Shown: one piece after another, positions 1,970 to 56,091 of the stretch
How the letters are laid out: each line of letters begins with the position of its first letter
Numbering within the stretch: the stretch's first letter is position 1
DNA from: Trichocoleus desertorum NBK24
GTDB taxonomy: Bacteria; Cyanobacteriota; Cyanobacteriia; FACHB-46
Reading direction: 5' to 3'
Length of the DNA: 64,000 nucleotides
NCBI RefSeq assembly: GCF_030409055.1
Contig: NZ_CP116619.1
Coordinates: forward strand, 1,335,628 to 1,399,627
Made by a program: the position numbers and the translations under genes
The notes under the pieces: generated by a model
Told to the model about the DNA's origin: nothing
Database searches by the model: none
What the model saw: the letters and a program-made list of their open reading frames with translations, nothing else

Positions 1970-3130
1970 ATGCACATTGCTTGGCTTGGAAAAAAATCGC
2001 CCTTTTGCGGCAACGTTACTTATAGCCGGGAAGTTACCAACAATCTGCTAGATCGGGGATACCAGGTTAGCTTTCTCCACTTTGCCCAGGAAGAAGACAC
2101 TCCAGCAGCTTGGTCAGACTATCAGGAAGTCTCCATTCCCTTTCTTTACAAATCTCAGGTTTACACCATTCCCACCCTCAAATCCAGCAAAATTCTGGCA
2201 CAGGCACTCCGGGAACTTAAGCCTGATATAGTCCACGCTTCCTTAACGCTATCGCCTCTCGACTTTTTACTGCCAGAGATTTGTGCTGAGCTAGATTTGC
2301 CCTTGGTGGCGACCTTTCATCCTGCTTTCGATCGCAGGCGTCGGCTAACTTCGAGTACGCAGCACTTGACGTACCAGCTCTACGCCCCTTTTCTCGCCAA
2401 CTACGATAGTGTCATTGTCTTTTCCGATATTCAACGAGATTTGCTGGTGCGCTTAGGCGTTTCTCCAGGCAGAGTGGCAGTGATTCCGAACGGAGTTGAT
2501 GTTCAAAAATATTCTCCAGGCCCTTCCCGGCTCAAAGCGCAGCTAAATGCCCAACAAGTCTATGTTTATCAAGGCCGCATCGCTTTAGAGAAGAATGTTG
2601 AGTCTTTACTGCGTGGCTGGAAACAGGCAAATATGGGACCTGACTGCAAGCTAGTCATTGTGGGAGATGGCTCCCTAAGACCCTCACTAGAACCGTTTTA
2701 TGGCCCAGATGCGGGCATTCTATGGTTAGGGTTTGAAGCCAATGAGCAGCGCCGCATCGAGATTTTGCGCGGTTCAGATGTATTTATTTTGCCTTCTTTT
2801 GTAGAAGGGTTATCGCTGTCTCTGTTAGAGGCAATGGCCTGTGGCGTTGCTTGTATCGCGACCGATGCGGGAGCAGACGGGGAGGTTTTAGCAGGAAGTG
2901 GAGTGAGTGGGGATGCGGGCGTCATTTTGAAGCCCCAAGGCGTGCACGGGCAATTACGCCACATTTTGCCTATGTTCCGTAACTTACCTGAGCTAGCAGC
3001 TTTGCTAGGCCAAAAAGCCCGCCAACGAGTGCTGGAACGCTACACCCTGAATGGCAACATCACACAGATAGAAGAGCTTTACGCCCAGGTATTGCAACGA
3101 GGGCGAGTTCAAGTGGGTAGCCGAGTTTAA
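1970..3130 (+). CDS. GT4 family glycosyltransferase, possibly DGDG synthase-like
   Basis: This 386-residue GT-B glycosyltransferase belongs to family GT4 (retaining). The N-terminal domain opens with MHIAWLGKKSPFCGN. The donor-binding C-terminal domain shows the GT4 pattern PSFVEGLSLSLLEAMACG, with two conserved glutamates, and a GxG-type loop (IVGDGSLRP). There is no signal peptide or transmembrane helix, so it acts in the cytoplasm or at the membrane surface. From memory, the N-terminus resembles cyanobacterial digalactosyldiacylglycerol synthase DgdA (Synechocystis slr1508), which would make thylakoid galactolipid. That link is a recollection without an alignment, so I give no gene symbol. 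Confidence 0.8.
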   Translation: MHIAWLGKKSPFCGNVTYSREVTNNLLDRGYQVSFLHFAQEEDTPAAWSDYQEVSIPFLYKSQVYTIPTLKSSKILAQALRELKPDIVHASLTLSPLDFLLPEICAELDLPLVATFHPAFDRRRRLTSSTQHLTYQLYAPFLANYDSVIVFSDIQRDLLVRLGVSPGRVAVIPNGVDVQKYSPGPSRLKAQLNAQQVYVYQGRIALEKNVESLLRGWKQANMGPDCKLVIVGDGSLRPSLEPFYGPDAGILWLGFEANEQRRIEILRGSDVFILPSFVEGLSLSLLEAMACGVACIATDAGADGEVLAGSGVSGDAGVILKPQGVHGQLRHILPMFRNLPELAALLGQKARQRVLERYTLNGNITQIEELYAQVLQRGRVQVGSRV

Positions 3131-3146
3131 TCCGCAGATTAGAGGG

Positions 3147-4070
3147 TTAGTTCTCAGAGGGAATTGCGGCAGCAGGCAGAGGCCAACCTAAACGGGTGGG
3201 CTGCTGATAAACTCGCTTCAAGGTATTGACATCTCTCGGAGAAATAGCGGCTGGATTACGCACTTGCGAAAAATAAAGGGCGTCAGTTTGCAGAGGGCTA
3301 TGGCCCCAAAGGCCCAAGGCGTGACCTAGCTCGTGGCGAGCTGCTGCTTGGATGTATTGAGGAGTTTGGCTAGGACGCAACCAAATTGTGCAGCGGTGAA
3401 GTAAAACAGGTAACGTATTATCCGATTGCTTGGTATAAAGTTCGTAGCGGGTTTCGGCGGAGCGGACTCGGTAATTGCGATCGCCAGGTTTCGGCCCCCC
3501 TTTGGTTAAAGGAGGAGGCGATCGCCAAATCGTAATATCTGCCTGCTCCGAGCGTTCAATTAATTGCAAGGGTAGATAAGCTTGCCATTCCACAACGGCT
3601 TGCTTCACTGCCTGCACCCATGCCTGAGTTTGAACCTGAGCTTGAGACTCTCGTTTTGCGACTCCTAGCATCGCTGCTGTCGCAATCGGTGACTCCACAT
3701 AAACCTTGACAGGAAACTGGGACCAAACTAAAGCCCCTACAGACAGCGGTTGAATTTGATCAAAGTAGTCGCCCTGACTTGAGCGATCGCGCCAACTGGC
3801 CAAGGTCTGGGGTAAAGGGTGAACTTGCAGAGGTGGCAGTTCTGAGCTAGATGGGGAGCTAGACAGAGCGGCATTGACCCAAAGGGCGGTCATAACAACC
3901 AACGCAATGGTTCCTAAAACTAACCCTGAACTGCGAAGAAGCTGCTTCAGTTGGCGATCGCCCGACCTCTGACCATTTTGTGTACACGAAAAAGGCGATC
4001 GGATTCTACCCAGCCGTAGCAGCGATCGCCTCTGTAACCAATGCATGACCTTCAACAAAATGCCAGACAA
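3147..4070 (-). CDS. Membrane-anchored matrixin-like zinc metallopeptidase
   Basis: The protein has 307 residues. A hydrophobic segment at about 48-70 is a likely signal anchor, leaving the rest in the periplasm or lumen. Residues 246-257 read HELGHALGLWGH, an HExxH zinc motif with catalytic Glu247 and a metzincin-like glycine at 253. The third histidine (257) is one residue later than in the classic HExxHxxGxxH. A Pro/Ser-rich stretch follows the anchor. The gene starts 2 nt after the secG stop, so gpmI, secG and this gene look cotranscribed. The substrate is unknown. Confidence 0.7.
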   Translation of the reverse strand: MSGILLKVMHWLQRRSLLRLGRIRSPFSCTQNGQRSGDRQLKQLLRSSGLVLGTIALVVMTALWVNAALSSSPSSSELPPLQVHPLPQTLASWRDRSSQGDYFDQIQPLSVGALVWSQFPVKVYVESPIATAAMLGVAKRESQAQVQTQAWVQAVKQAVVEWQAYLPLQLIERSEQADITIWRSPPPLTKGGPKPGDRNYRVRSAETRYELYTKQSDNTLPVLLHRCTIWLRPSQTPQYIQAAARHELGHALGLWGHSPLQTDALYFSQVRNPAAISPRDVNTLKRVYQQPTRLGWPLPAAAIPSEN

Positions 4071-4072
4071 TT

Positions 4073-4306
4073 CTACCGATTAAACCATCCAGCACTCAGA
4101 CCCACCGTTAAAGACATAAAGACCACCACCAAGGTCCAGGTGACTCGGTTCAAGGTAGTTTCAGCACTCTTAGTACTTGTAAAAAGTTGGGCTTGCCCAC
4201 CGATGCCACCAAGGCCATCTCCTTTAGGACTGTGTAGCAAAACCAGGATAATCAGGCCCAGCGCTGACAAGGCCCATATTACTTGAATGATCGTACTCAG
4301 TGTCAT
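4073..4306 (-). CDS. secG: Protein translocase subunit SecG
   Basis: This 77-residue protein has two transmembrane helices joined by the glycine-rich loop LLHSPKGDGLGGIGG, which is characteristic of SecG. SecG is the small accessory subunit of the SecYEG channel and assists SecA-driven export across the plasma or thylakoid membrane. Length and hairpin topology match the family. It sits 42 nt after gpmI and 2 nt before the peptidase gene. The channel subunit secY is in this same window at 15210-16514. Confidence 0.92.
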   Translation of the reverse strand: MTLSTIIQVIWALSALGLIILVLLHSPKGDGLGGIGGQAQLFTSTKSAETTLNRVTWTLVVVFMSLTVGLSAGWFNR

Positions 4307-39955: not shown

Positions 39956-42544
39956 CTAGAGGGTTGCCAAAAGCTGCTTAATGCGACCTTCCTGGCGTTC
40001 TTGCAGTTGTTCAGGAAAACTCAATTCGACCGCAGCACTAGCAGTTCCTTCACTGCCTAGAGCAGCTAACGGTTCTATGGTTCGCACCACTGCTAGTAAG
40101 CGCTTCGGTAAGGGATGCCCATCTTCCACCAACACACCGACAACGGGTTGATCGCGTTGCAGCGATTCCAAAGCATTAATCGGTTCGTTGAATTCTAACC
40201 GCAGACTCCGGACTCCCATCTCAGTTGCAGTGGCCGTATAAAAATGGCCTTCCCAATATAACTGAGCAGGTGCTTGAATTCGTTTGCGAACCTTCTGGCC
40301 TTGGATGGGCTTTGCCTCTTGGAAAGACCGAGTCAAGGTAGTCGCAATAAAGCGTAGAGAATCCAAGGGGTCATCTAGTTCTTGGCGATTTTGTGAATAC
40401 CACTCTCGCACATCCGAGTAAAGCACGATCGCTAGAGCATCTAACTCGGATTGACTGGGGTTAATAAAGTCAACCACTAGAATGGTTTGAGCATCATTCA
40501 GTGGCACCCCTCGCACGATCCGGGCTTTAAGAAATGCTCTGGCTCCGTAGTCACCCACCAGTTCCAGTTCGATCTCGTCCGGTAAATTGGGCCAGGAATC
40601 TAGAACAATTCGCGCCCCAGATTCACTGACATCCTCAGTTTTGCCTCTCCAGGTTTGGTCGGGGCCATAAATGACGGCAGTTAACTTGCGGTTGAGGCGG
40701 TGAGTTCGTCGCAATTGCGGCTGCTCAAAGGCCACCAAAATTGCGGCCACAATTAGCACCAGATTGAAAATGCCCCAGAGCATGTTTACCAGGACAGCTT
40801 CGGTATCTTCTGGCCGTAAAATCAACCAAAATGGCACCGCTAACAACGACAGTGCCACTAGAACTGCTACCGCTACCAATGGGCGAGCTGATTCCCAGTC
40901 AAAGTCCCGCTTAGTCACCGACAACCCTTTATCGGTGACGTTGAAAGACCCCATTTTAGGGTTGATCAAGGCCATGAACGTCACTGCACCTGCATAGAAC
41001 GACATCGCGAATTCATAGATTTCGTTCCAGAACGAAAAGCGCACATTCTTGTACGTGATGAAGTTGGCGTACATCGACAAGAGAATGTGGGGCAGAGCGT
41101 AGGCTAGAGTTTCTAATCCCAACCCTCGAATCGGGTTAATGCTAAACAGCAGAAACAGGGTTGGGGCGATCGCGTACATTAAACGCGGAAAGCCAAAGAA
41201 AAAGTGCGAAGTAGCTGAAAAATAGCAAATTCGCTGCGGGATCGTCAGGTTGAGCTTGCGGTTGAGGAGAGGATTTTCTAGGCGCAGAATTTGGGCCATG
41301 CCTCTAGCCCAGCGCACCTGCTGACCAATGTAGGACGAGAATTTCTCTGGGGCTAACCCCGCCACCATGATCTGGTCGTAATACACCGATTTGTAACCCA
41401 AGGAGTGCAGCCGGAAAGCAGTGTGGCAATCTTCTGTCACCGTTTCTGTCGCAATGCCGCCGATTTGTAGGGCATAGTCTTTACGAATGACCGCCGCAGA
41501 ACCGCAGAAAAAGGCCGCATTCCAAAAGTCATTACCCTTTTGCAACACCTTATAGAAAAGTTCGTTGCCCACGGGCACTTTGCCACGAGTGAGCAAGTTA
41601 CGCTCGAATGGGTCTGGGTTATAGAACCAGTGAGGTGTCTGGACAAAGGCCACCTTTGGGTCCAGGAAAAAGCCCACCGTGGTTTGCAGAATCGGTCGAG
41701 ATGGAATGTGGTCACAATCTAGAATCAAGACCAAGTCGCCATCGGTGCGGGTAAACGCTGTGTTAATGTTGCCCGCTTTGGCATGGTCGTTATTGTCGCG
41801 GGTCAGCAAGGTGCAGCCAAGCTCCTCGCACATCCTGCGCAGAGACTCCCGTCGGTCTTTATACTTTTCAGCCCGACCGTCATCCAAAATATAGACCCGC
41901 TTTTTGTCCGCCGGATAATCGATCGCCAAAGCTCCCAATACCGTTTTGCGAACGATTTCCACATCCTCGTTGTAGGTCGGAATGTAGACATCTACCTTAA
42001 ACAGGCGATCGCTAGGAATGGTAGACAGGTCAATCGGTTGGCGCTCTTTGATTTTGAGGGTTTGAAAGTAGGCCAGAAACAGGGTGATGATCGCGTATAG
42101 CTCTGCCCCATACAGCACCACTGAAAAAAAACCGTTAACCAAACCGTCAAAGTTAAAGGTATAGGCAGTGCGATAGTACAGGTAACGCGCCGTCGTCACC
42201 GAACTCAACCACACTAAAAACAGATGCAAATACTCGCTGGTCTGCACATCGTTGCGCTGTTGCTCGATGCGTACAACCAACCAACCAATCAGCATCAACA
42301 ACACAGCAACCACGCCCTGTTGCCAAATCTTCAGCGGTGTCGTGATTAAGGGCAAAGACAAGCCGAACAAGAGTAAAGCCAGCAACCAAAGCTGACGGCG
42401 GTTTAGCGAGTCTAAGACCCGATCAAACCAACTGGGAACTCGATCGACTAACCAATCGGTCAGTTTATCCAGGGGCGATCGCCGCCTTGGTACAGTCGCT
42501 AAGGACTCTGGATCTGGCCGTAACGGGGGAGAGGGATTGGCCAT
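39956..42544 (-). CDS. bcsA: Cellulose synthase catalytic subunit with PilZ domain
   Basis: BcsA is the inner-membrane GT2 processive glycosyltransferase that polymerises UDP-glucose into glucan and threads it across the membrane. Of 862 residues, about 50-160 hold the N-terminal helices. The GT domain shows DDG at 221-223, DCDH at 276-279, FFCGS, TED at 370-372 (catalytic base) and QQVRW at 408-412 (acceptor site). C-terminal helices follow. The PilZ domain has RRTHR at 612-616 and DVSESG at 638-643, the c-di-GMP-binding residues. Its ATG follows the bcsB stop with no gap. This and the other family names in the operon come from motifs and gene order, not alignment. Confidence 0.93.
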   Translation of the reverse strand: MANPSPPLRPDPESLATVPRRRSPLDKLTDWLVDRVPSWFDRVLDSLNRRQLWLLALLLFGLSLPLITTPLKIWQQGVVAVLLMLIGWLVVRIEQQRNDVQTSEYLHLFLVWLSSVTTARYLYYRTAYTFNFDGLVNGFFSVVLYGAELYAIITLFLAYFQTLKIKERQPIDLSTIPSDRLFKVDVYIPTYNEDVEIVRKTVLGALAIDYPADKKRVYILDDGRAEKYKDRRESLRRMCEELGCTLLTRDNNDHAKAGNINTAFTRTDGDLVLILDCDHIPSRPILQTTVGFFLDPKVAFVQTPHWFYNPDPFERNLLTRGKVPVGNELFYKVLQKGNDFWNAAFFCGSAAVIRKDYALQIGGIATETVTEDCHTAFRLHSLGYKSVYYDQIMVAGLAPEKFSSYIGQQVRWARGMAQILRLENPLLNRKLNLTIPQRICYFSATSHFFFGFPRLMYAIAPTLFLLFSINPIRGLGLETLAYALPHILLSMYANFITYKNVRFSFWNEIYEFAMSFYAGAVTFMALINPKMGSFNVTDKGLSVTKRDFDWESARPLVAVAVLVALSLLAVPFWLILRPEDTEAVLVNMLWGIFNLVLIVAAILVAFEQPQLRRTHRLNRKLTAVIYGPDQTWRGKTEDVSESGARIVLDSWPNLPDEIELELVGDYGARAFLKARIVRGVPLNDAQTILVVDFINPSQSELDALAIVLYSDVREWYSQNRQELDDPLDSLRFIATTLTRSFQEAKPIQGQKVRKRIQAPAQLYWEGHFYTATATEMGVRSLRLEFNEPINALESLQRDQPVVGVLVEDGHPLPKRLLAVVRTIEPLAALGSEGTASAAVELSFPEQLQERQEGRIKQLLATL

Positions 42545-45115
42545 CTATTTATCCTGCTTTGCTACACGCTTTAGATAAAGCTGAGTCACACCGTAGAGAC
42601 CCAGAGCGAACACAACGATTCCAGTCGGCAACACGAACCAATTGTCTTGGAGAAAGCGGGAAGCTTTACTAAAAGGATTGCTGTTATCCAACCGCCGTGG
42701 GGAGCTTTGCTGGAGAAACTCTAAATTGTAAGCATCTGGATCATAGCCAGAAGCCCCTGCTTGATTCGCACTGACTAGCGCTGTATCACCATTGAGTTGG
42801 AAGAACAATGGATCTTGGTTCAGCACATTCTGGACTTGTTGCAAGCCTGCCTCTGTTTGGGCACTCAAAGCTAGCAGAACGCGATTGTCATTCCAAGGAG
42901 AAATTACTTCTTTGATCACCCCTTCACTATCTGGCAAGGCTTGAATCTGGCTTTGATTCCACCTCCGAGAGAACAGATCTTTGAGAACAAAGCCGCTTGC
43001 TTGGAAGGCTTCTGGGAAAGGGAATTGCGATCGCTCCCCAATTGCCACTAGGTTTTGTCGATTTCTTACCTCTTCAGGTAAGGCATCAACTGTGTAAGCT
43101 TCCACCTTCACCGTATCCGCTTGGCTCAATCGGCCTAATCTCTCACTAAACTCTAGGAAGGTGCCCAAGGCGGTGATCGATGGGGTAGTGGGTAAAACCA
43201 TCGCGGTGGTCGAGAGGTCTTGAGGGGCCGTAAAAGGATACCCTGTCGCCAGCAACTTCAGGTCAGGAATTTGGACAACGTTCTGGCGCTTGAGGTTAAA
43301 GCGGGTGTCGGCATGGACTTTCCCCCACAACTGCTGGTCATTGACCCGACCACAGTTAGCAGGTTCACGGGGGCTGAGATTAAACACCACCTGAATTTTG
43401 GAGTCCGGTTTAATCAAGTCAGCCGGGAGGTTGACGTTTAAGGTTTCCCTGGTAGCTCCTTGCTCGGCGGTCAACCGCTTACCGCCGATCGGGGCACCAT
43501 CAAGCCGCACTTCTACCGTAGAGAGCCGAGGATTAACCTGGGGGCCGTGGCTATATACCAGGTTCATCGAGCTACCGCGCGTAAACTGATCGTCTGGCAA
43601 AGCCCGGAAGTTCATTTCCACCGGTGGGGCATAGGCCCCTCGAACAGTCACATCCTGAAATGGCTTATCGTCCGCAGTTTTTAGATCACTGAGCTGGAAG
43701 GAATTTTTGTCTGGGAGATAACCAGGCCATTGTCTAGGAGATGGGGTGGGTACAGGCGTAATGTCATTGACCACGACATAATAGCCAGTGCTAATCTGAC
43801 GATCTTGTGGCTGTACTAAAAACTGCACAGCTTTGTTGACGCCTTCCGGCCCATTACCTGTGGCAATCAACACGGGCACCCCATTACTCCGAGTAGTGGC
43901 TAGCATCAAAATGCCTGCATCTGGGGGCAAGGGGTTGCGATTGCCGTCTAAGACTTGATTGCCTGCGATCGCCAGCGGCAGCTTAAGCGACTTCAGCCCA
44001 GGTTGGTCTTCGGGAGTCCCGATCATGACCAAGCGCTCATCGGCTCTCGCCTGATTGATATTTTTAACCAGTCGAGTTTCTAGCGGTCGAAACTCTGCTA
44101 AGCGTCCTAACGAAGCTTGGAAACGAGCAGCGGAGGTCAACCAGTTACTGTCTACCTGGTTAGGTAACAGATACGTCACTCGGTTAGGGTCAAGGCTGAG
44201 ATTGTCAAAGAAAGGATAGGGATACCGAGCAAAGTCCAGCCTGACGGGTTTGGGTTGGTAATTAAACAGCAGCTTGGAATCAGGTAAGATTTCTGTCCAC
44301 AAAGTCGGGTCAGCGGGATCAGTACAGGTTGCTGAATTATTCTGCTGAGCCACCAACGACACTTCATTAAAGTCTTGAATTAAGTTAGGCGGTACATTGA
44401 GCAGAACTTGACCAATTTCAGACTGCTTGCGGTTCAGCGGCACACTGCCGATGCTGGTGCCATTGACTCGGACGGTTAGGTTAGAGCGATTCGCTAAGAG
44501 GGCGGGCGAGTGCTGAAACCGTACCAATACTTTAGCGGAGCGCAGGTTCCAGTTCCGGGGCCGTGTAAAACCTAAGCGAGCATCAGAAAATACACCTTGT
44601 AGTCGTAACCGATTCCCTACCACCGGACTGCGATTGAATTCCATTACATAAGGAATGGTTGGCCCTCCGCTAGCAGGCGTATCGGGTGTAGAGCTGGCAC
44701 TGGGAGCCGTAGTTGATTCTGACGGGGTAGAACTAGTAGATTCTGGGGCCGCTGGAGCGGGAGCAGCAGGCTCAGGATCAGGCTCTGGGGCGGGTTCTGG
44801 GGCTGGCTGATAAGAGGCAGGTTCTCTAGGAGCGGGCGCTTCTACTGGGCCAGGATCAGGGGCTGGGGCGGGCGCGGGTTGGTATACCGGAGCTTGCGGG
44901 GGCGGCTCTGGCAGCGTGAACTCCTCAATGATCTGATTTTCTGCTTCTTTAATATCGCGATCGCTCTGCTGGGCTACGGCTAAGCTTGCCGTCACTCCAA
45001 TAGCTGTGCCCGCAAAGCTGAGCAATAAAAGCCAGATCATAGGGCGCTGTTGGCGGCTCCCTGGGCGGGACTGGCGGCGGGAAGATGGAAGGAAGGGACG
45101 GAAGATGCGTGGCAT
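42545..45115 (-). CDS. bcsB: Cellulose synthase regulatory/periplasmic subunit BcsB
   Basis: BcsB guides the nascent glucan in the periplasm and is required for BcsA activity. The protein has 856 residues, with a signal or anchor helix at about 26-48, then a long Pro/Glu/Ala/Ser-rich linker (about 75-160), an unusual extension, then carbohydrate-binding/flavodoxin-like domains (two similar halves with VRFQHSP and VNLPADL-type segments). The C-terminal transmembrane helix (WFVLPTGIVVFALGLYG) anchors it to BcsA. It is directly adjacent to bcsA and 27 nt after the GH8 gene. Confidence 0.88.
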   Translation of the reverse strand: MPRIFRPFLPSSRRQSRPGSRQQRPMIWLLLLSFAGTAIGVTASLAVAQQSDRDIKEAENQIIEEFTLPEPPPQAPVYQPAPAPAPDPGPVEAPAPREPASYQPAPEPAPEPDPEPAAPAPAAPESTSSTPSESTTAPSASSTPDTPASGGPTIPYVMEFNRSPVVGNRLRLQGVFSDARLGFTRPRNWNLRSAKVLVRFQHSPALLANRSNLTVRVNGTSIGSVPLNRKQSEIGQVLLNVPPNLIQDFNEVSLVAQQNNSATCTDPADPTLWTEILPDSKLLFNYQPKPVRLDFARYPYPFFDNLSLDPNRVTYLLPNQVDSNWLTSAARFQASLGRLAEFRPLETRLVKNINQARADERLVMIGTPEDQPGLKSLKLPLAIAGNQVLDGNRNPLPPDAGILMLATTRSNGVPVLIATGNGPEGVNKAVQFLVQPQDRQISTGYYVVVNDITPVPTPSPRQWPGYLPDKNSFQLSDLKTADDKPFQDVTVRGAYAPPVEMNFRALPDDQFTRGSSMNLVYSHGPQVNPRLSTVEVRLDGAPIGGKRLTAEQGATRETLNVNLPADLIKPDSKIQVVFNLSPREPANCGRVNDQQLWGKVHADTRFNLKRQNVVQIPDLKLLATGYPFTAPQDLSTTAMVLPTTPSITALGTFLEFSERLGRLSQADTVKVEAYTVDALPEEVRNRQNLVAIGERSQFPFPEAFQASGFVLKDLFSRRWNQSQIQALPDSEGVIKEVISPWNDNRVLLALSAQTEAGLQQVQNVLNQDPLFFQLNGDTALVSANQAGASGYDPDAYNLEFLQQSSPRRLDNSNPFSKASRFLQDNWFVLPTGIVVFALGLYGVTQLYLKRVAKQDK

Positions 45116-45142
45116 GGATGAGTAGGTTTAGCGGGTGGGGCT

Positions 45143-46501
45143 TTAACGAGGTTGCAACAGTTGAGAAGAAACGGTGTCAGGTGGCAGCAAGCCTAACCAA
45201 GCCAGGTTTTGCACATAATAAGCGGAGTCGTTATCCCAAAAACCATTGCGGTATCGGGACTGCAACTTCTGCTGCCAAACTTGCTCAGCGATCGCAGGTT
45301 CCAGCAGTCGCCAAGCAGGATACAACATGGCATATTGAGCGGTGGCTTCATAGCTCACGGTGGGTGCCCCTGAAAGATCAAAAATGGCGGGAATTTTTTG
45401 TTGCGATCGCCATTGTTTTTGTAAAAATCCTAAATGCTTTTGCAGATACGCTTTAGCAGGTGCAGAGTCAAATAACTCAGCGTCCCACGCCACCCGCCAC
45501 CAAACCCGGTAAGCATCAAAACTGTACCGACTTTGCAGTGGCCCAGAGAGCGGCAATGGTTGAAACTCCCCTGTGGTCGTATCCAGCGCCACCCAATCAC
45601 TCGGCAAGCCAACCGCTGAAAGCTTGGCTGAATTTTCCAACGCTTGATAACTACTGTCCACCAAGCTCAGCCAATCGTGGTTGGGGTCTACTTGAGCGAA
45701 GAGACGAAACGCATAAGGCGCGAAATAGGACGGATTCAGTTGAATCACGCTCTGCTGCTGAAAAGCTGCGGCTGGCCCTGGCAGTAAATAGCGCTGCCCA
45801 CCCGCAGCTACAGTGGAAAATCGCCACAAGTCTTGCAGCTTGACTTGCGCTAACTTCAGGTATTCTGGTTTCTGCCAACGCCGGGAAGCCCAGATCAGAG
45901 CTGTAATAGCATCTACATCAGCGTCACTGGCAAAGTTGGGATCGATCGCACCCCATTTTGGTGGCTCGTTAGGGCTTTGTTCGAGACGGCCCCACTTCCA
46001 CACCCAGAGCTGGTCAGTCCGTTTGCCGTTGGCTTGACGTTGCAGATTGTTTTCTGACCACTCCAACGTTTTGGCGAAGGTGGTGGGATCATCAATCAGG
46101 ACGGCTCGTAGCATGGCATAGGCTTGCCCTTCTGAAGTAGAGCGATCGCCCGCTTCCCGGTCAATCACCCGCCCATCGGCTTGGATAAAGCGTTGCCGAT
46201 AGGCCGCCCAACTTTGCTCTAAGAGCTGCTCAATGGGAATTGCTGCCGTGGTTGAACTTGTAGTCGGGGAGGGGCTGATAGCAGGTGCCGTTGTAGCTGG
46301 AAGAGGGGTTGGTGGAGACTGCCTCGCATCGCTCAAAAAGCTGGAGCATCCGACCAAACCCATTGCACCGAGCAAACTAACCGATGTTGCTACCCGACTC
46401 CACCATGACCACGAGTACTTTTGTTGTTTAGTTTTGGGGTACCGTAACATCTCAACTGGCCCTGCACGTAGTAAAGCTAGAGGCACAAAATTGAACCGCA
46501 T
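45143..46501 (-). CDS. bcsZ: GH8 endoglucanase lipoprotein, BcsZ-like
   Basis: GH8 enzymes cut beta-1,4-glucan. In cellulose operons the BcsZ enzyme releases misfolded chains and permits export. The protein has 452 residues, with a signal peptide ending at lipobox LVGC (Cys52), unlike soluble BcsZ of enterobacteria, so the enzyme is probably membrane-tethered. The catalytic acid is likely Glu124 in TSEGQAYAM, and ASDADVDAI at 191-199 has the second acidic residue. Start is ATG 46501; a second ATG at 46450 (MLRYPKTK) is also possible. It lies 27 nt upstream of bcsB. Confidence 0.88.
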   Translation of the reverse strand: MRFNFVPLALLRAGPVEMLRYPKTKQQKYSWSWWSRVATSVSLLGAMGLVGCSSFLSDARQSPPTPLPATTAPAISPSPTTSSTTAAIPIEQLLEQSWAAYRQRFIQADGRVIDREAGDRSTSEGQAYAMLRAVLIDDPTTFAKTLEWSENNLQRQANGKRTDQLWVWKWGRLEQSPNEPPKWGAIDPNFASDADVDAITALIWASRRWQKPEYLKLAQVKLQDLWRFSTVAAGGQRYLLPGPAAAFQQQSVIQLNPSYFAPYAFRLFAQVDPNHDWLSLVDSSYQALENSAKLSAVGLPSDWVALDTTTGEFQPLPLSGPLQSRYSFDAYRVWWRVAWDAELFDSAPAKAYLQKHLGFLQKQWRSQQKIPAIFDLSGAPTVSYEATAQYAMLYPAWRLLEPAIAEQVWQQKLQSRYRNGFWDNDSAYYVQNLAWLGLLPPDTVSSQLLQPR

Positions 46502-46526
46502 GGTGACAACACCATCCCTTTGGCAG

Positions 46527-48863
46527 TTAGTAACGTTCCCACGGAGGTTGAAACCCGCGCTGTCTTAATAGGTCTTCCTTAATCTGCTGCACCCTGCGAG
46601 ACAAACTACTATCCGGGGTTCCGGTGGTTGCTTGCTGTACCTGAAGTTGCTCAAGTTGCTGTAAAGCGGTCAGAGGCATCCCTTGAGCCGCCATCAACTC
46701 AGCCAGCGATCGCTGCGCCCCCACATCAGTCGGATTGAACGCCAGCACTTGTGAGTACAACTCTTCTGCCGCTCCAAAGCGACGTTGCTGGAACCGCACC
46801 CCGCCCAAAGCAGACAACGCTTCCACATTATTCGGTTGTAGCTGTAACAGCCGCTGGTAGGCATCGCTGGCTTGATCCAAATCTCCCAATGCTTGGGCTA
46901 CCTGACCTTGCAGTTGGTAAGCACCCGGATTGTTGGGGTTACGAGCTACCAGTTGGGCGGCGATCGCTCTGGCTTGGGCAGGACTCCGAGCCGCAATCAC
47001 TTGAATCGAGCGCAACTGCAACACAGTATTGTTCGGGTCAACTTGCAGCAGCGCATTGTAAAGCGGTTCACGTCGGGGATCAGGGGGTAAAACTCCCACC
47101 AAAGTCACCAATTCCGGAGGCATATCGGTAGGGGGGCGGGTTTGCAGCCAAGTATTCAAAACCGCTTCCGCCTCTGCCAGAGAAATCCGTTGAGCCTGAT
47201 AAGCCAAAGCGGCTCGACCAAGCTGAATTTGTAAATCTTGCGGATTTAGAGCCACCAACTGGTTGTAAATTGCGATCGCCTCGTCCGTCCGCCCCTGGGT
47301 TTGGCGAACACTAGCCAAGCCTTGCAGCGCATTATTGATAATGTCGCGATCGCTGGGGTTACTGGCCAAAATCGCTTGATAGCGCTGGGCACTCGCTTCC
47401 AGATTCCCTTCGCGCCGTTCAATTTCAGCCAGCAGCAGTTCCGTAGCTCGGTCTTGAGTTCCAGCCGGAGTATTCGCATAGGCAGCCAAGGCACTTCTAG
47501 CCGCTGGCAAATTATTTTGCTGAATGAAGATTTGAGCAATGCGGAAGTTGAGGAAAGGCGCATTCACTCCTGCTTGCAGCAGTGTTTGGTAAACCGGAAA
47601 TAGTTCGGGGTCAGCATCTATAGCCGATAGCGCCTGGGCCAGTTGCTGTAGCTCAACCGGATTAGTAGGGAGCGGTTGCAAAACCGTTCTCAGTCGTTGC
47701 TGCACTTCAGCTTGGGAAGCTACTCCTAACTGGCTCTCCAAGGCTAATTGCTTCAGCGCCAAAATTTGACTGTTGGGTTGCTGCTGCGTCAGTTGACGAT
47801 ACAGTTGCAGCGCATAAGGACGCTCGGCAGGAATACCGCTGAGCACATCGGCCACTTCTTGCACCAAGGTAGGAGTGGGATTAGTTTGGCGCTGGAGTTC
47901 CTGACGGTAAAGGGCTGCTGCTTCTTGGGTTAGGGTCGGAGCATTCGCTTTACGGCCTAACTCATTAAGTGCCCGCGCCAGAGGCAACACCGCTTCCGGA
48001 CGACCTCGGAGCGGATCTAACGCTGCTAGCGCTTCGGCAGATTGCTGATTGGCTAAATAAGCTTGAGACAGCTCCGAGCGGGCCTGAATTGCAGTGTCGT
48101 CTAACTCGCGAGAGGATTGCAGTTGCGTTTGCAGAATGGCGATCGCTTGAGTCGGATTGCCCGTTTCTCTCAAAGCACGAGCATAGGCAACGGCAGCATT
48201 TCCTGTAATCGATCTGCCTAAAGCGCGATAACGGTTGAATAGAGCCAGTCCTTGTTGAGCATTTCCGGTGTAAGTATAGATTTGCGCTGCCCCCAGAATC
48301 GCATCCGGGGTGGGGTTGTTCTGGAGAACCACTTGGTAGTCAGCCAAAGATTCGGCAAAGCGGCCTCGGTAGCCTAGCAAAAGCGCCCGCTGTGCCCGCG
48401 CCTCCAAATCGTTTGGCTCTAAAGTCAGCAAAGTAGTGAGGGCAATAATGCCTCGGTCTTGCCACTCAGCACGGTAGCCTCCTAGCAAACCCAGCGTTTT
48501 CAGTGCCAAACGGTTGTTTGGGTCTTGCTCTACAACCCGCTCATAGGCTTGAAAGGCATCGGCATCTCGTCCGGCTCGTCGGTAAGCGATCGCCAAACCC
48601 AACTTGGCTTCTATCGATTGGGGGTAATTGCGAATGGCTCGCTGAAAAGCCGCGATCGCATCATCGACCAAGCCACGATTGAGCAAAGTATAGGCTTGTC
48701 GCACCGGAGCGGGCACCGTTTGTGCTTGAGCTGGGGGAATTTCCCACTGCCAGAGGTCTATCATCAAGCCACCACTCAACCCCAAAACCAGCAAGCAAGA
48801 GCATCCTAAGCGCTTCAGCCTCACTCTGCGGGCGTTTTTACGAGTGTCATGCCGTTGGTTCAT
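46527..48863 (-). CDS. Periplasmic TPR protein, BcsC N-terminal-like
   Basis: This 778-residue protein has a signal peptide ending near AQAQ (about 48) and at least a dozen tetratricopeptide repeats in the rest (YTLLNRGLVDDAIAAFQRAI is the first). It corresponds to the periplasmic TPR arm of BcsC, which bridges the synthase to the outer-membrane pore and coats the glucan on its way. It has no beta-barrel, which is on the upstream gene. Its ATG overlaps the upstream stop by 4 nt (ATGA), so the two are translationally coupled. Confidence 0.85.
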   Translation of the reverse strand: MNQRHDTRKNARRVRLKRLGCSCLLVLGLSGGLMIDLWQWEIPPAQAQTVPAPVRQAYTLLNRGLVDDAIAAFQRAIRNYPQSIEAKLGLAIAYRRAGRDADAFQAYERVVEQDPNNRLALKTLGLLGGYRAEWQDRGIIALTTLLTLEPNDLEARAQRALLLGYRGRFAESLADYQVVLQNNPTPDAILGAAQIYTYTGNAQQGLALFNRYRALGRSITGNAAVAYARALRETGNPTQAIAILQTQLQSSRELDDTAIQARSELSQAYLANQQSAEALAALDPLRGRPEAVLPLARALNELGRKANAPTLTQEAAALYRQELQRQTNPTPTLVQEVADVLSGIPAERPYALQLYRQLTQQQPNSQILALKQLALESQLGVASQAEVQQRLRTVLQPLPTNPVELQQLAQALSAIDADPELFPVYQTLLQAGVNAPFLNFRIAQIFIQQNNLPAARSALAAYANTPAGTQDRATELLLAEIERREGNLEASAQRYQAILASNPSDRDIINNALQGLASVRQTQGRTDEAIAIYNQLVALNPQDLQIQLGRAALAYQAQRISLAEAEAVLNTWLQTRPPTDMPPELVTLVGVLPPDPRREPLYNALLQVDPNNTVLQLRSIQVIAARSPAQARAIAAQLVARNPNNPGAYQLQGQVAQALGDLDQASDAYQRLLQLQPNNVEALSALGGVRFQQRRFGAAEELYSQVLAFNPTDVGAQRSLAELMAAQGMPLTALQQLEQLQVQQATTGTPDSSLSRRVQQIKEDLLRQRGFQPPWERY

Positions 48864-51607
48864 TGCAGCCTACCCTTCGGTGTGACATCAAATTCAGTTT
48901 TGAGGCGGAATCCCGCAATCGTCTCCGAGAAACCATTCAACTCCTGCAAGGTAAAACCTAGCCGCAAGTTGGGCAAAAAGCGAAAATCGTAGTACAGCTC
49001 CAGAACATCTGGGTTGCGATCGCCCTGCTCACGCCGCAAAGCCGCATTAGACAGTTGGCGACCATAAGCGAGACCCAAGCGATCGTCAGGGGCAAACACA
49101 TCTAAAGCGGTAACCCCTACGTTGTAAGTATTGCCCTGTTCGCCGATGCCTCGGTTGTTGTACTCCCCGTAGCGACCAAACAAACCCATATTGAGGCTAG
49201 GGATAAAGACTTCTGCGTTAATGCCAAAGCCTTCCTCGCGATCGCCCCGTTGAGGCCCCGTTATCCCATCGCCTCGATTCACCTGAAAGATTTCTCGGAA
49301 GCCGTCGCCTGCACCCGTTTCTCGCCCGGTAGTGTAGGTAGCCCGAATAATGGCATTGCCGTAGCGCAGTCCCAGTTCACCTGCAAAACCATCCAAACTA
49401 AAATCCCCGATACTCCGGGCGGAAGAAAAGGCCGCAAATCTCGCTTCGATGTTGTCCGTCAAAGACCAATTAACCAACGCTCCTGGACGAGAACCGATTC
49501 CTGTAGCCGTCAAAGCGGAGTTGGTCTGAAATACGGGGTTAAAGAAGTGGCTGGCTCCATCCTTGGCGAAACTGTTGCGATCGAAATAGGACGTTAAGTC
49601 CAATTGCCCCACCACAAACCGCAAGTTTGGCAAGTCCCTTGGAGAGGTAGCGACAAACAGCTCATTCAGGCTCAGACCTTCTTGTTGAGAATCCGCCAAC
49701 CCCTGCCCAGTGGTCAAATCCAACGCCCCACCAAACAGAATATTCGGGGTTAAGGGGTAAGCTGCCGATAAGCGGGCTCTAGCAGATGAGTCATTTCCTT
49801 GATAAAGATAGACGCCTTGCAGTTGCACCGAAGGTTCGCTCAAAGCCGTACTCCGCAGAAGCGGCATGGAGGAGGTTTCTGGTCGAGTTTCCAAGGCGGC
49901 AGCGGGCGTTAAGTTGCTCGGAGGCACCGTGGTACTTTGAGGCGCTGTCGGTGTTGGTGTGTTTTGGAATGGTGGAAAAGCTGTTGGCTGCCCCGATGGA
50001 TAACCGCTGCCATAAGGACTCGGAGCACCGGAGGGGCCATAGGGCGCACTGGGATAAGGGCGGCTGGGAGCAGGGTTGCCAGGATAATTGGGCGCAGCGT
50101 TGTAAAAACTACCAGGATAGGCTGGGGGCGGGCCTGAAAAATTGCTGGGATAACCCGGAGCGGGTGGGTACGGACTAGCAGGGTAAGGAGTAGCAGGATA
50201 CCCTACCATAGGCCCAGGAAAATTACCGGGATAACCAGGACTGTTGGGATAAAAATTGCTCGGATAACCCGGAACTGGCGGATAGGAATTATTGGGATAA
50301 GCAGTAGCGGGGTACCCTACCGTAGGCCCAGGAAAATTACCGGGATAACCAGGATTTTGGTTATAAATGTTACCTGGATAGCCAGGTGGAATAGGACTAG
50401 AGAAATTAGTCGGGTAACCCGGATTTTGGTTATAGAAATTATTGGGATAGTTAGGAGCTCCATTCGAGAAATTGCTTGGGTAATTAGGCGCTCCTTGATA
50501 AAAATTACTGGGATAGGTAGGCGCTCCTTGATAAAAATTTTGCTCTACAGGTGGCGCACTCAAATTAGGCATTGAGGGCGCAGCTACAGGCGCTGAATTA
50601 GGAGAGGGGGATGGAGCAAATCGATTGTAGAAATAGACATTATTTGAGCTATTAGAGGGGTTAGAAACACCACCGGAAACCATTGGAGCGGGCATCGGGG
50701 CAGGAAGTGGCTGTCCCATCGGGTAGAAACCACCATTAGGATTCCAACCGTAAGGACTGCCATAAGGATTCCATCCTCCAGGTGGCATAGGTGATGCCTG
50801 AACAGGAGGTAGCTGCCCGACTGCGTAGGGATAGGGGTAAGCATTACCATTGGCAACTCCCCACCCTGGCGCGGGGACAGGCACTCCAGACATCCAGGGC
50901 AATTGCTGAGGAGAAAAATTGCTGCTGGATGCTTCCGAGCGAACCGTAGGCAATGGAGTTGGGACTGGCAGCGGTTGTTCGGCGGCGGAAAGCGTGGGCA
51001 AATTGCTACCCTGCCCTAGAGGCTGGGGCCAACCATTGCAATTACCTCCACACATCCCAGGGCCATACTGACCGGGTACGCCTAACCCCGTACCATTCAT
51101 CTGCCAGTAATTATCAGCCGTCTGGATAGGAACAGTAGGGGAAATGCCAACAGTATTGGTAGGAATCGAGGTGGATTGAGCAGAGGGCGATCGCTCAGGA
51201 GCACTAGAGGTAGCCGATCGCTCAGGAGTAGCCCTAATTTCCAGATCAGTATTTTTTAGCTCAAGCGGCTGAGCTAGATCCACTTCAGCAGCAGACAAAC
51301 TTTTAGGGGCATTGAGGGGAGCGGCCATAGCCACCCCAGAGCGAACCTGAGCTGTAACGTTTTTGCCTCTGATCTTTTTCTTTTCTTTCCTTTCTGCGTC
51401 AGCTTGTCTCTGAGTAGCTGGGACTGGATTCGGAGAGGTTGCCTCAGGCGTTGGCTCTTGCTGATGGAGAGAGTTTGCCAAGCTAGGCTTTGCCTGAATT
51501 AACCCAGCACCCAAAAGCAATGAGATTGAGCCAGATGCCAGGACTCTAACGGAGAATAAATAGCTACGAAAGATAGACCAACGAGAATCAAGCATGATAT
51601 GGCTCAC
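48860..51607 (-). CDS. Outer-membrane barrel protein with Pro/Tyr/Gly/Asn-rich domain
   Basis: The protein has 915 residues. A signal peptide covers about 20-45. Residues 45-360 are low complexity (Pro, Ser, Thr, then Pro/Gly/Tyr). Residues about 365-560 are repeats rich in PGYP, NYPxNF and PYPP, including a 38-residue tandem duplication at 419-494. Residues about 593-915 look like an OprB-like beta-barrel with alternating strands, such as LRFVVGQLDLTSYFDRNSFA. It has no TPR. I infer that it is the outer-membrane exit of the cellulose system, replacing the BcsC barrel. It is the first gene of the operon. Confidence 0.72.
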   Translation of the reverse strand: MSHIMLDSRWSIFRSYLFSVRVLASGSISLLLGAGLIQAKPSLANSLHQQEPTPEATSPNPVPATQRQADAERKEKKKIRGKNVTAQVRSGVAMAAPLNAPKSLSAAEVDLAQPLELKNTDLEIRATPERSATSSAPERSPSAQSTSIPTNTVGISPTVPIQTADNYWQMNGTGLGVPGQYGPGMCGGNCNGWPQPLGQGSNLPTLSAAEQPLPVPTPLPTVRSEASSSNFSPQQLPWMSGVPVPAPGWGVANGNAYPYPYAVGQLPPVQASPMPPGGWNPYGSPYGWNPNGGFYPMGQPLPAPMPAPMVSGGVSNPSNSSNNVYFYNRFAPSPSPNSAPVAAPSMPNLSAPPVEQNFYQGAPTYPSNFYQGAPNYPSNFSNGAPNYPNNFYNQNPGYPTNFSSPIPPGYPGNIYNQNPGYPGNFPGPTVGYPATAYPNNSYPPVPGYPSNFYPNSPGYPGNFPGPMVGYPATPYPASPYPPAPGYPSNFSGPPPAYPGSFYNAAPNYPGNPAPSRPYPSAPYGPSGAPSPYGSGYPSGQPTAFPPFQNTPTPTAPQSTTVPPSNLTPAAALETRPETSSMPLLRSTALSEPSVQLQGVYLYQGNDSSARARLSAAYPLTPNILFGGALDLTTGQGLADSQQEGLSLNELFVATSPRDLPNLRFVVGQLDLTSYFDRNSFAKDGASHFFNPVFQTNSALTATGIGSRPGALVNWSLTDNIEARFAAFSSARSIGDFSLDGFAGELGLRYGNAIIRATYTTGRETGAGDGFREIFQVNRGDGITGPQRGDREEGFGINAEVFIPSLNMGLFGRYGEYNNRGIGEQGNTYNVGVTALDVFAPDDRLGLAYGRQLSNAALRREQGDRNPDVLELYYDFRFLPNLRLGFTLQELNGFSETIAGFRLKTEFDVTPKGRLQ
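50126..50353 (-). repeat. In-frame 114-bp tandem duplication
   Basis: Two copies of 38 codons (50353-50240 and 50239-50126) encode PGYPGNFPGPxVGYPAT and a following PYPP-GYPSNF stretch. They differ at few positions, so the duplication is recent or maintained. It lies inside the barrel protein's repeat domain, not in a CRISPR. Confidence 0.85.
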
Positions 51608-52056: not shown

Positions 52057-52839
52057 ATGCCACATCAGTTTCTAAATCTCACCCAAGCCAAGCAGATTTG
52101 GCAGAAAGCGCTACCCTATTGTCTGAGCGCCCTGGCTCTTGCTGGCACTGGTTGCTCGGAGGCAAAAGCTCCTGTCGCTCATTTGAGCTTTCAAGTAGAA
52201 CCCGCTGGGCGATCGGGAGTTTATGCCATGTCAGGCAGCACCAATCTACCCGATCAAAGCCAGATCACTGTTGCTGCGATTCGCTATCTTTCTGCCAGCA
52301 ACACAGCACCCATAGCTGCTGGACGCTTGTCATCAGAACTTTCATCTCAGCTAACTTATACAGTCTTGAGTCGGCAAAAGGTTGCAGTCAACCAAGGCAA
52401 ATGGCAAACCTCGCTGAATCTTTGGCAAGTTGCACCCAATGGTCAAATCCGGGAAGGATGGCAACTCAATCAACCGGAACTCAAACTTCCCATGACTCCT
52501 GCGCCTGATGTCGTCTTCCTAGCAACCTTCGAGCCTGCAAATCAACCAGCTACTATTTCCCAAAAATTACAAGAGCAAGGTCTGCAACTAGAAGGTAATT
52601 CAGCCCGCTTTACTACGGATGGCCAACGATACTTGCAAGTGAGTCAAGCATTACCTGTAGCCCTGCCCACAGGTAAAACAGCTCCTCCCGCCATTACCGC
52701 AGCTGATACCAACGGCGGATGGGGCGATCGCTCTGGGAACACCCCTAAACAATCAAACACAGAGGATCTCAAACCATCAGCCAGCGCCAATATTAGCCAA
52801 ACTACTGCCCCGCTCTCACCCGACCAGCAACTTCGCTAG
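52057..52839 (+). CDS. Probable lipoprotein of unknown function beside the cellulose operon
   Basis: This 260-residue protein has a signal sequence ending ALAGTGC (Cys33). The -3 residue is Gly, so the lipobox is imperfect. The middle (about 45-200) alternates in a beta-rich way and includes RYLQVSQALPVALP. The C-terminal 55 residues are low complexity, Asn/Ser/Thr/Pro-rich. I recognise no domain. It is divergent from the cellulose operon and sits in its regulatory region, so a role in the envelope part of glucan export is a guess from position only. Confidence 0.6.
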   Translation: MPHQFLNLTQAKQIWQKALPYCLSALALAGTGCSEAKAPVAHLSFQVEPAGRSGVYAMSGSTNLPDQSQITVAAIRYLSASNTAPIAAGRLSSELSSQLTYTVLSRQKVAVNQGKWQTSLNLWQVAPNGQIREGWQLNQPELKLPMTPAPDVVFLATFEPANQPATISQKLQEQGLQLEGNSARFTTDGQRYLQVSQALPVALPTGKTAPPAITAADTNGGWGDRSGNTPKQSNTEDLKPSASANISQTTAPLSPDQQLR

Positions 52840-52951: not shown

Positions 52952-53779
52952 TCAGGAAGCCACTCGCTGTTGTACATGGATAGGCTCCACTTTTTGTGAG
53001 CGAGGCTGATGACTCATATTGGAATGAAATCGATTGAGGCTAGTAGCTCGTCCAGCATCTAATTGAGGTAAATCTTGGAAGGCTCCTTGCAACACTTCTA
53101 ACTGAGACATAATTTGTTTCAGTTGAGTTTGCAACTCATCTACCTGAGCATGAGCTGCGGTGGCTTGCAACTGTGCCGCCTCAGTCGTTGCCCCTGCTTG
53201 AGCAAAGCTGAGGAAAGCTTGAGCGGGATGCAAAGCGGAAACGGCAGCTTGCATCGACATCGAACGAGGGGCATCAGTTTTTACCTCGGCCGTTGGAGTC
53301 GAAGCTGTTGCAACTTCAAATGCAGGCGGAGCTGAGTCGGTAATTACTACAGGTTGAGCTACATTAACGACAGTTGCTGTCACAGCCTGTGCAGGTTTGT
53401 CATACAGAAAATCAGAGAGTCCTGTCGCTGCCAAGCGAACTTCAGATAACTTCAGATCTTCTAGCTGGCTCTCTTTTACTTGCAAATCCTCTTTGAGGCT
53501 AGACAGTTGTTCCTCGGCTTGAGCAGATTTACGAGAAGAGTGCCGCCAACCTGTTACCGCGATACTTGCAATTCCTGCACCCAAGCTCAGCGCCGCTGCA
53601 AACCCTAAATAGGGAGCTGCTACATCTTTCAGCTGACCACTAAAAACAGGTTCTTGTTGCATCCGAATATCAACTGGTTGTGAACCCAACACAACTAGTG
53701 GCAACGTCAAGCTAGAAAACACCGTGCTAGAGAGAAGAACAGCAGGTAGTAAAAAGCTCTTAAGTGGCGATACAGGCAT
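52952..53779 (-). CDS. Membrane protein with coiled coil, unknown function
   Basis: I chose ATG 53779 (MPVSPLKSFLLPAVLLSS), with GGAG 9 nt upstream, giving 275 residues over a TTG 18 nt earlier. A signal or TM segment covers about 5-30 and a second about 58-80. Then a Lys/Glu/Leu coiled coil (EEQLSSLKEDLQVKESQLED) precedes an Ala/Thr/Val-rich region and a second short coiled coil (about 205-235). No family is recognised. It converges with the lipoprotein gene and diverges from the GH5 gene. Confidence 0.6.
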   Translation of the reverse strand: MPVSPLKSFLLPAVLLSSTVFSSLTLPLVVLGSQPVDIRMQQEPVFSGQLKDVAAPYLGFAAALSLGAGIASIAVTGWRHSSRKSAQAEEQLSSLKEDLQVKESQLEDLKLSEVRLAATGLSDFLYDKPAQAVTATVVNVAQPVVITDSAPPAFEVATASTPTAEVKTDAPRSMSMQAAVSALHPAQAFLSFAQAGATTEAAQLQATAAHAQVDELQTQLKQIMSQLEVLQGAFQDLPQLDAGRATSLNRFHSNMSHQPRSQKVEPIHVQQRVAS

Positions 53780-53797
53780 ATTTCGAACTCCAAGCAA

Positions 53798-54372: not shown

Positions 54373-56091
54373 TTGACTAAAAATATGATCGAATTCTTCC
54401 AGCAAGTCTCAAGTTTTTTTAGACAGCATTCTCAAAGAGTGGTTCACGTCCGGAACCGCTGGCGATCGCGTTCTTTGCCCCAATGGCTAGCCTTAGCTCT
54501 GGTTGGTTTCTGTCTCAGTTTAGGACTACAGTTCTATCCAAGCTTAGAGTCAGCGAATGCTACCCCCGCGATCGCTTTCCCCCTAGCGACCAGAGGAGCT
54601 CAAATTATTGATGCCAGAGGTCGGCCAATATTACTGCGGGGAGTGAATTGGTTTGGCATAGAGACGGAACTGCACGCCCCTCACGGCTTATGGGCCCGTG
54701 ACTACCGTGAGATGTTGGCGCAAATCAAAGGTTTAGGCTACAACATCATTCGCCTTCCCTTCTCAGTACAAGCCCTACGCTCTGCTGAGGTAAGCGGGAT
54801 TGATTTTAAGATTGGCGCGAACCAAGACTTGGAGGGTAAATCGCCCTTAGAAATCATGGATGCTGTGATTCAAGCAGCGGGGCAACAAGGATTGTTGATT
54901 TTGCTGGATTGTCACCAACTTAACGATCAACGCATTCCAGAGCTTTGGTATGGCGATGGCTTTACCGAAGCAGATTGGATCGACACCTGGAAAATGTTAG
55001 CAATTCGCTACAAAAACCAGCCCCATGTGATTGGAGCCGATCTTAAAAATGAGCCTCATGGTCGTGCCAGTTGGGGCACGAATGACTCAGCGACAGATTG
55101 GCGACTGGCGGCTGAGCGAGCAGGCAACGCCATTTTGGCTGTGAATCCTAACTGGCTAATTGTGGTCGAGGGAGTAGAAAACAATGTCCCAGGGCAGAAG
55201 CTAGCAGTTCACTGGCAAGGTGGCAACTTAGAAGGCGTCAAGCGTTTCCCGGTTCGCCTAGCAGTCAAGGATAAATTAGTTTATTCGCCCCATGAATATG
55301 GCCCCGGTGTTTACAACCAGCCTTGGTTTTCAGAAGCAGCTTTTCCTAAAAACCTTTATAGTCGCTGGGAAACTGGGTTTCACTACATTGCAACTCAGAA
55401 ACTAGCGCCGATCTTGATTGGAGAGTTTGGGGGGCGACAGGTAGATCGCAACTCCCCTGAGGGAATTTGGCAACGGCAGCTCGTTGACTTTATTCGGCAG
55501 AAACAACTGAGCTTTACTTACTGGAGCTGGAACCCGAACAGTAAAGATACTGGCGGTATTTTACAAGATGACTGGCGCACGGTGGAGCGTGATAAACAAG
55601 CCCTCCTCAGCCAACTCTTACCCAAGTTGAGTGCTCCCTCAGTTCCTTCGGCAACAAATCGCGCCACTCCTCCTGCCAGACGTCAGCCCATTCCAAGAGT
55701 TCAACGTCCAACGAGGCGATCGCCTACCCCATCCTCACCCACTCCGTCTTCACCTGCTTCATCTGCCACAACAACTCGACCTACCAAAGCTCAACTGCAA
55801 GTGAAGGCTGCGATCGAGTCAGATTGGGCTACTGGCTTTTGTACCAGGTTCTTAGTGACAAATTCAGGCAAGACCGCAACCCAAAATTGGCAGTTGGCTT
55901 TTCGGATGAACCAAGCCAACATTAACAACAGCTGGAATGGTAGCTTCAATCGTCAAGGTCTCCAGTATCAAGTCACTCCGCCTGATTGGGGAAAGACACT
56001 ACAGCCGAACCAAACGATGGATCTGGGCTTTTGCGCTACTAAGTCGGGCTCCGATTACCGCCCCCAGCAAGTTTCGATTTCCAGCCCTTGA
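54373..56091 (+). CDS. Secreted GH5 endoglucanase with CBM2
   Basis: The protein has 572 residues. A hydrophobic segment at about 38-55 with a cleavage-like ESANA tail (58-62) suggests secretion. The GH5 TIM barrel (about 70-410) has the acid/base Glu227 in KNEPHG and the nucleophile Glu351 in LIGEFGG. A Ser/Pro/Thr linker follows (about 420-470). The C-terminal 100 residues are a CBM2 cellulose-binding module with surface tryptophans (DWATGF, NNSWNG, DWGKTL) and two cysteines. It should hydrolyse beta-1,4-glucan outside. The start could be TTG 54373 or ATG 54385; neither has a good SD. It is the last gene before rpoC2, convergent across a terminator. Confidence 0.85.
   Translation: MTKNMIEFFQQVSSFFRQHSQRVVHVRNRWRSRSLPQWLALALVGFCLSLGLQFYPSLESANATPAIAFPLATRGAQIIDARGRPILLRGVNWFGIETELHAPHGLWARDYREMLAQIKGLGYNIIRLPFSVQALRSAEVSGIDFKIGANQDLEGKSPLEIMDAVIQAAGQQGLLILLDCHQLNDQRIPELWYGDGFTEADWIDTWKMLAIRYKNQPHVIGADLKNEPHGRASWGTNDSATDWRLAAERAGNAILAVNPNWLIVVEGVENNVPGQKLAVHWQGGNLEGVKRFPVRLAVKDKLVYSPHEYGPGVYNQPWFSEAAFPKNLYSRWETGFHYIATQKLAPILIGEFGGRQVDRNSPEGIWQRQLVDFIRQKQLSFTYWSWNPNSKDTGGILQDDWRTVERDKQALLSQLLPKLSAPSVPSATNRATPPARRQPIPRVQRPTRRSPTPSSPTPSSPASSATTTRPTKAQLQVKAAIESDWATGFCTRFLVTNSGKTATQNWQLAFRMNQANINNSWNGSFNRQGLQYQVTPPDWGKTLQPNQTMDLGFCATKSGSDYRPQQVSISSP

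Follow-up and report, generated by a model that had tools for sequence, protein, structure and literature searches.

How does cellulose leave a cyanobacterial cell when the operon of its synthase encodes a TPR protein and a barrel protein as two genes? In E. coli, a single chain, BcsC, combines 19 TPRs with a barrel of 16 strands, and the first of these TPRs binds BcsB (PMC11379886). A survey by Pereira et al. in 2015 recorded no BcsC_C domain in cyanobacteria, with BcsB and GH8 in few strains, and considered the cyanobacterial exporters likely to be different (PMC4594306). Another survey from 2015 described BcsC-type barrels in five strains, including alr3754 of Anabaena 7120 (PMC4365693); the alr3754 locus is of a different type from the cluster analyzed here. 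According to a 2025 review, cyanobacterial operons lack BcsB, and XcsAB-TolC (HlyD/TolC) is an unconfirmed model (PMC12430437). We found no account of the present cluster in the open-licence literature, and subscription papers may hold one.

Operon organization and identity of the synthase genes

The cluster lies in a window of 64,000 nucleotides, which is the whole stretch of DNA analyzed. Its five genes are all on the minus strand and are transcribed in the order barrel, TPR, GH8, bcsB and bcsA. The barrel gene (48860-51607) encodes 915 residues from a GTG start, with an ATG four codons 3' of it, and the product carries an OprB-family porin domain at the C-terminus. It is followed by the genes for the TPR protein, a predicted periplasmic solenoid of 778 residues (46527-48863), a BcsZ-like GH8 endoglucanase of 452 residues (45143-46501), BcsB, a periplasmic co-polymerase of 856 residues with a C-terminal membrane anchor (42545-45115), and BcsA, a cellulose synthase of 862 residues with a PilZ domain (39956-42544). 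The barrel and TPR genes overlap by four bases (ATGA), and the gaps between TPR and GH8, GH8 and bcsB, and bcsB and bcsA are 25, 27 and 0 bases, respectively. This spacing agrees with the original prediction that the five genes form one operon, and the places of the TPR and barrel genes as separate reading frames overlapping by ATGA were confirmed. No c-di-GMP riboswitch or other Rfam RNA was found near the operon, promoter and terminator scans at the operon gave scores no better than those of shuffled sequence, and HlyD matched none of the ten reading frames scanned in the cluster and its flanks.

Family profiles bore out the assignment of BcsA, BcsB and GH8 as real cellulose synthase genes. 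BcsA matched TIGR03030 (CelA) with 709.6 bits against a cut-off of 699.1, also matched the PilZ domain (PF07238) above its cut-off, and was 38% identical to E. coli BcsA; it was the sole CelA-type synthase found in a search of its own genome. It carries QQVRW, and its PilZ part carries RRTHR and DVSESG, motifs whose meaning is established for PilZ proteins and which make control of BcsA by c-di-GMP likely. BcsB scored 350.8 bits with PF03170 (cut-off of 21), and across 737 aligned columns it was 21% identical to its E. coli counterpart. The GH8 protein matched PF01270 with 138 bits, well above the cut-off, and the BcsZ equivalog model with 160 bits, below the cut-off of 299 bits. It is 32% identical to E. 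coli BcsZ and keeps the equivalents of E55 and D243, the mutation of which inactivates BcsZ and impairs cellulose secretion (PMC11379886). The GH8 protein of the window has an N-terminal LVGC lipobox. For the GH8 family as a whole, a lipoprotein nature is no more than a possibility: a strict lipobox was present in 8 of 36 relatives only, although most have a Cys after the hydrophobic stretch.

Structure and family of the barrel protein

Neither Pfam nor NCBIfam gave a match to the full-length barrel protein. Its first ~560 residues comprise a signal peptide and a Pro-rich low-complexity stretch of ~500 residues, and the barrel proper occupies the C-terminal ~325 residues (~590-912). The total length varies from 488 to 1267 residues among relatives, and so does, widely, the N-terminal stretch; in the N-terminal half encoded in the window (49900-51450, minus strand), repeats of the YPxNFY/PGYPxNF type were seen, with ~20% Pro. 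We aligned residues 560-915 with 49 relatives and used the alignment as input to AlphaFold2, which predicted a barrel domain of 16 strands with a pLDDT of 81 and a pTM of 0.79. The claim that the 915-residue protein forms a barrel thus stands for the predicted structure of its C-terminal part, not for the whole chain. Conservation in the alignment was highest in a long inner loop that joins strands 5 and 6, around DLTSYFDRNSFAKD..HFFNPVFQTN; this loop is nearly invariant and was partly of low confidence in the model.

The top solved match to the barrel model was OprB from Pseudomonas putida (Z score of 23.4, 297 aligned residues, RMSD of 3.3), and general porins ranked below it with Z scores of 18 to 22. 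BcsC and AlgE were absent among the structural matches listed, an absence that excludes nothing. At the sequence level, the barrel domain matched PF04966 (OprB) with 28.9 bits against a cut-off of 22.9, and 28 of the 50 barrels compared matched this family, with a best E value of 2.9e-12. Alginate_exp matched none of the 50. When a barrel profile was compared with four OprB porins that this genome encodes, the E value was 6e-5 and the probability 64%. A search of PDB sequences with the barrel returned nothing but chance ferritin matches. The profile match together with the structural and profile comparisons places the barrel with the OprB porins, as a putative divergent carbohydrate porin of that family rather than a BcsC barrel. 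An assignment to BcsC_C was rejected: PF05420 matched none of the 50 barrels and nothing in the genome, and hhalign against the E. coli BcsC barrel gave a probability of 0.8% in what is, with a single sequence, a weak test. The genome encodes seven further OprB matches; in the four of them that were inspected, the N-terminal region is conserved and of SLH type, and the operon barrel lacks such a region.

Structure of the TPR protein

Many TPR models matched the TPR protein, and its predicted structure was a single all-helical solenoid spanning residues ~50-770 with ~20 helical hairpins (pLDDT of 88), in line with the earlier observation of a TPR protein with its own gene. The number of hairpins is comparable to the ~19 TPRs of BcsC. 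A Foldseek search with the model returned generic solenoids only and was uninformative. The protein has a Sec-type signal ending in AQA and lacks a lipobox, which was seen in none of the 55 sequences surveyed. A conserved C-terminal tail, GFQPxWER[YF], was considered as a barrel-docking signal that would be lost with the barrel, and this idea was dropped because locus L079, without a barrel, retains GYQPFWERY. Additional matches to the tail pattern in genomes G118, G289 and G376 were in short reading frames and look like chance.

Conservation and genome distribution

A scan of genome contigs with the barrel yielded 59 loci, all of them cyanobacterial according to their record titles. In most, the genes run barrel-TPR-(GH8)-bcsB-bcsA along a single strand, and the arrangement is not a matter of chance, since the same order and strand recur in this way. 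The survey of gene order across cyanobacteria that the original prediction called for thus came out in its favour, the order being conserved. The TPR gene directly followed the barrel gene in all 52 loci with at least 2.4 kb downstream, and a 4-base overlap was the commonest junction between the two. Among the 36 loci with 9 kb downstream, BcsB was present in 32, BcsA in 31 and GH8 in 24, GH8 being missing from about a third.

We also searched 386 genomes sampled from the phylum, counting the barrel as present above 300 bits and BcsB as strong above 250 bits; the genomes are not independent, and no P value is claimed for these counts. The barrel occurred in 16 of the 386 genomes, belonging to 15 genera and 8 families. 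Strong BcsB occurred in the same 16 and in one genome of another class, so that within Cyanobacteriia the two sets were identical. Genera g21 and g57 each include species with all parts and species with none. Weaker barrel matches elsewhere (E values of 1e-10 to 1e-4) mostly covered 60-110 residues of reading frames of ~390-590 residues, and these are probably ordinary porins. Two BcsB genes lie side by side (L080:8198-12942) in genome G343, which comes from a different class of the phylum and has no barrel of this family.

Barrel and BcsB agree in copy number, with two of each in genomes G215, G305 and G360; the exception is G011, with 1 and 2. In Moorena, second copies (L033-L035 and L052) consist of barrel and TPR genes with no neighbouring synthase, and the barrel-TPR pair behaves as a unit because this second pair stands apart from the synthase genes. 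Conversely, the second operon of G011 (L079, 6971-14404) has TPR, BcsB and BcsA with no adjoining barrel; a transposase-like reading frame (3040-4230) lies upstream of it. In G011 and the Moorena-like G360, the missing parts are present elsewhere in the genome. Pairwise distances of barrel, TPR, BcsB and BcsA correlated with r values of 0.88 to 0.93, which is compatible with joint descent and also with shared species history.

A lipoprotein and other neighbouring genes

Outside the region covered by the original prediction (39956-51607), and missed there, a divergently transcribed gene on the plus strand (52057-52839) encodes a lipoprotein family member of 260 residues. Its Cys33 is invariant and sits in a sequence resembling a lipobox, and no Pfam or NCBIfam family was recognized. 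A profile search found this family in exactly the 16 of 386 genomes that have the barrel and BcsB; the copy in G011 is remote from any operon. The lipoprotein is a probable sixth component, judging from this distribution, and the strongest new lead. A predicted exported coiled-coil protein of 281 residues is encoded on the minus strand (52952-53797) between the lipoprotein and a secreted GH5-CBM2 cellulase (54373-56091, plus strand; PF00150 and PF00553). The coiled-coil gene is syntenic in part of the loci only, and the cellulase gene in some relatives only. The cellulase is a possible member of the system and could remodel or release exported cellulose.

Comparison with known secretion systems

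The cluster shares with the Bcs systems of E. coli type II and relatives (BcsA-BcsB-BcsZ-BcsC) BcsA, BcsB, the GH8 enzyme BcsZ, periplasmic TPRs and a 16-strand outer-membrane barrel. However, TPR protein and barrel are encoded by separate genes here, whereas BcsC is one chain; the barrel belongs to the OprB family, there is an additional lipoprotein, and the gene order is mirrored, with the porin first and BcsA last. As modelled, the TPR protein and the barrel together amount to the parts list of BcsC.

In alginate secretion, which is also synthase-dependent, a separate TPR protein, AlgK, works with an outer-membrane porin, AlgE (PMC9734138). By analogy, AlgK/AlgE is the closest working counterpart of the TPR/porin pair, although AlgE is assigned to a different barrel family (Alginate_exp), AlgK, unlike the TPR protein here with its lack of a lipobox, is a lipoprotein, and polymer and synthase differ. 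The XcsA-XcsB(HlyD)-TolC systems of Thermosynechococcus, S. elongatus and Nostoc share a PilZ-type cellulose synthase and an endoglucanase with the present operon (PMC12430437), but they are without BcsB and have an HlyD-like adaptor and TolC where the operon here has TPR protein and porin. A TPR-plus-barrel exporter gene divided in two is known from pelB in aquatic thermophiles (PMC7112194). That case concerns the Pel system and was reported as fission of one gene.

Loci of the type barrel-DUF3131-CesA (PCR type) also have a stand-alone barrel next to a cellulose synthase-like gene. Their barrel is weakly BcsC_C-like, however, DUF3131 proteins take the place of TPR protein and BcsB, and the synthase has no PilZ match. 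Two loci, L098 (7086-15864) and L099 (8023-14822), showed such a stand-alone, weakly BcsC_C-like barrel and a synthase with no PilZ match, and in L098 one DUF3131 and one double-DUF3131 protein are encoded between the two. They are probably of the alr3754-alr3757 type of Anabaena 7120.

Probable replacement of BcsC and alternative explanations

The original prediction held that the TPR and barrel proteins together replace a BcsC that had been split. Replacement was supported, but the split was not, as the barrel matches OprB and not BcsC_C. The BcsC barrel thus looks to have been replaced by a different porin family rather than separated by fission of BcsC, and "BcsC replaced by an OprB porin and a TPR protein" is the better description. 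A true fission of an ancestral BcsC, with a BcsC_C barrel diverged past recognition, would account for the 16 strands and for the similar sizes of TPR part and barrel. We consider it improbable given that OprB was matched by 28 of 50 barrels and BcsC_C by none, that OprB came first among the solved barrels aligned, and that hhalign against the E. coli BcsC barrel gave 0.8%, weak as this single-sequence test is.

OprB is by family a carbohydrate uptake porin, and with a secreted GH5-CBM2 cellulase encoded close by, the barrel might instead take up cello-oligosaccharides released by GH8 and GH5-CBM2, while cellulose exits elsewhere, for example through a TolC-type channel as in the HlyD/TolC model of cyanobacterial cellulose export (PMC12430437). 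This reading appears unlikely because the barrel is obligately paired with the TPR protein, never apart from it in 52 of 52 loci, and follows BcsB genome by genome rather than the GH5 cellulase, the gene of which is present in some loci only. The seven other OprB matches of the genome could also serve uptake, and the TolC model applies to systems that have an HlyD-like protein but no BcsB. The genome has many porins, and the barrel could simply share the operon with no role in export; this is very improbable, because the barrel co-occurs with BcsB and the lipoprotein in an all-or-none manner, in 16 of the 386 genomes and even within genera, and stays paired with the TPR protein when apart from the synthase.

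For the preferred reading, replacement of BcsC, the cluster would function as follows. BcsA would polymerize cellulose and extrude it across the inner membrane with BcsB, activities that are established for both families. The periplasmic TPR solenoid may take the chain from BcsB and guide it to the outer membrane, where the OprB-family 16-strand porin would release it. GH8, with its kept catalytic residues, may trim stray periplasmic chains like BcsZ, and the lipoprotein encoded at 52057, to judge from its profile and lipobox, would be an accessory that is probably anchored in the outer membrane. The predicted folds, the 52 of 52 pairing and the co-occurrence of barrel, BcsB and lipoprotein in 16 genomes support this model. 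Counting against it are the synthase operon without a neighbouring barrel (L079), the barrel-TPR pairs without a neighbouring synthase (Moorena), the lack of GH8 in about a third of the loci, and the fact that OprB porins normally import sugars. On balance, we infer cellulose export by the barrel-TPR pair, and barrel, TPR protein and lipoprotein probably carry cellulose out of the cell.

Implications for cellulose export in cyanobacteria

The cluster is real and conserved and is a variant of the Bcs system. There is good reason to believe that it serves c-di-GMP-controlled cellulose synthesis and secretion, with a separate TPR protein and a recruited carbohydrate porin in the role of BcsC. We lean, with less assurance, towards the broader proposal that an OprB-family porin was recruited from cyanobacterial porins and, run in reverse in concert with a soluble TPR protein of solenoid fold and a previously undescribed lipoprotein, replaces BcsC in BcsB-containing cyanobacteria. 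If true, this would give cellulose one more path through the outer membrane of Gram-negative bacteria. The cluster offers a specific candidate for the outer-membrane step that has been missing from cyanobacterial cellulose export and adds the lipoprotein as a testable component, and it suggests that an uptake-type porin can be converted to polymer export when a TPR protein guides the chain to it.
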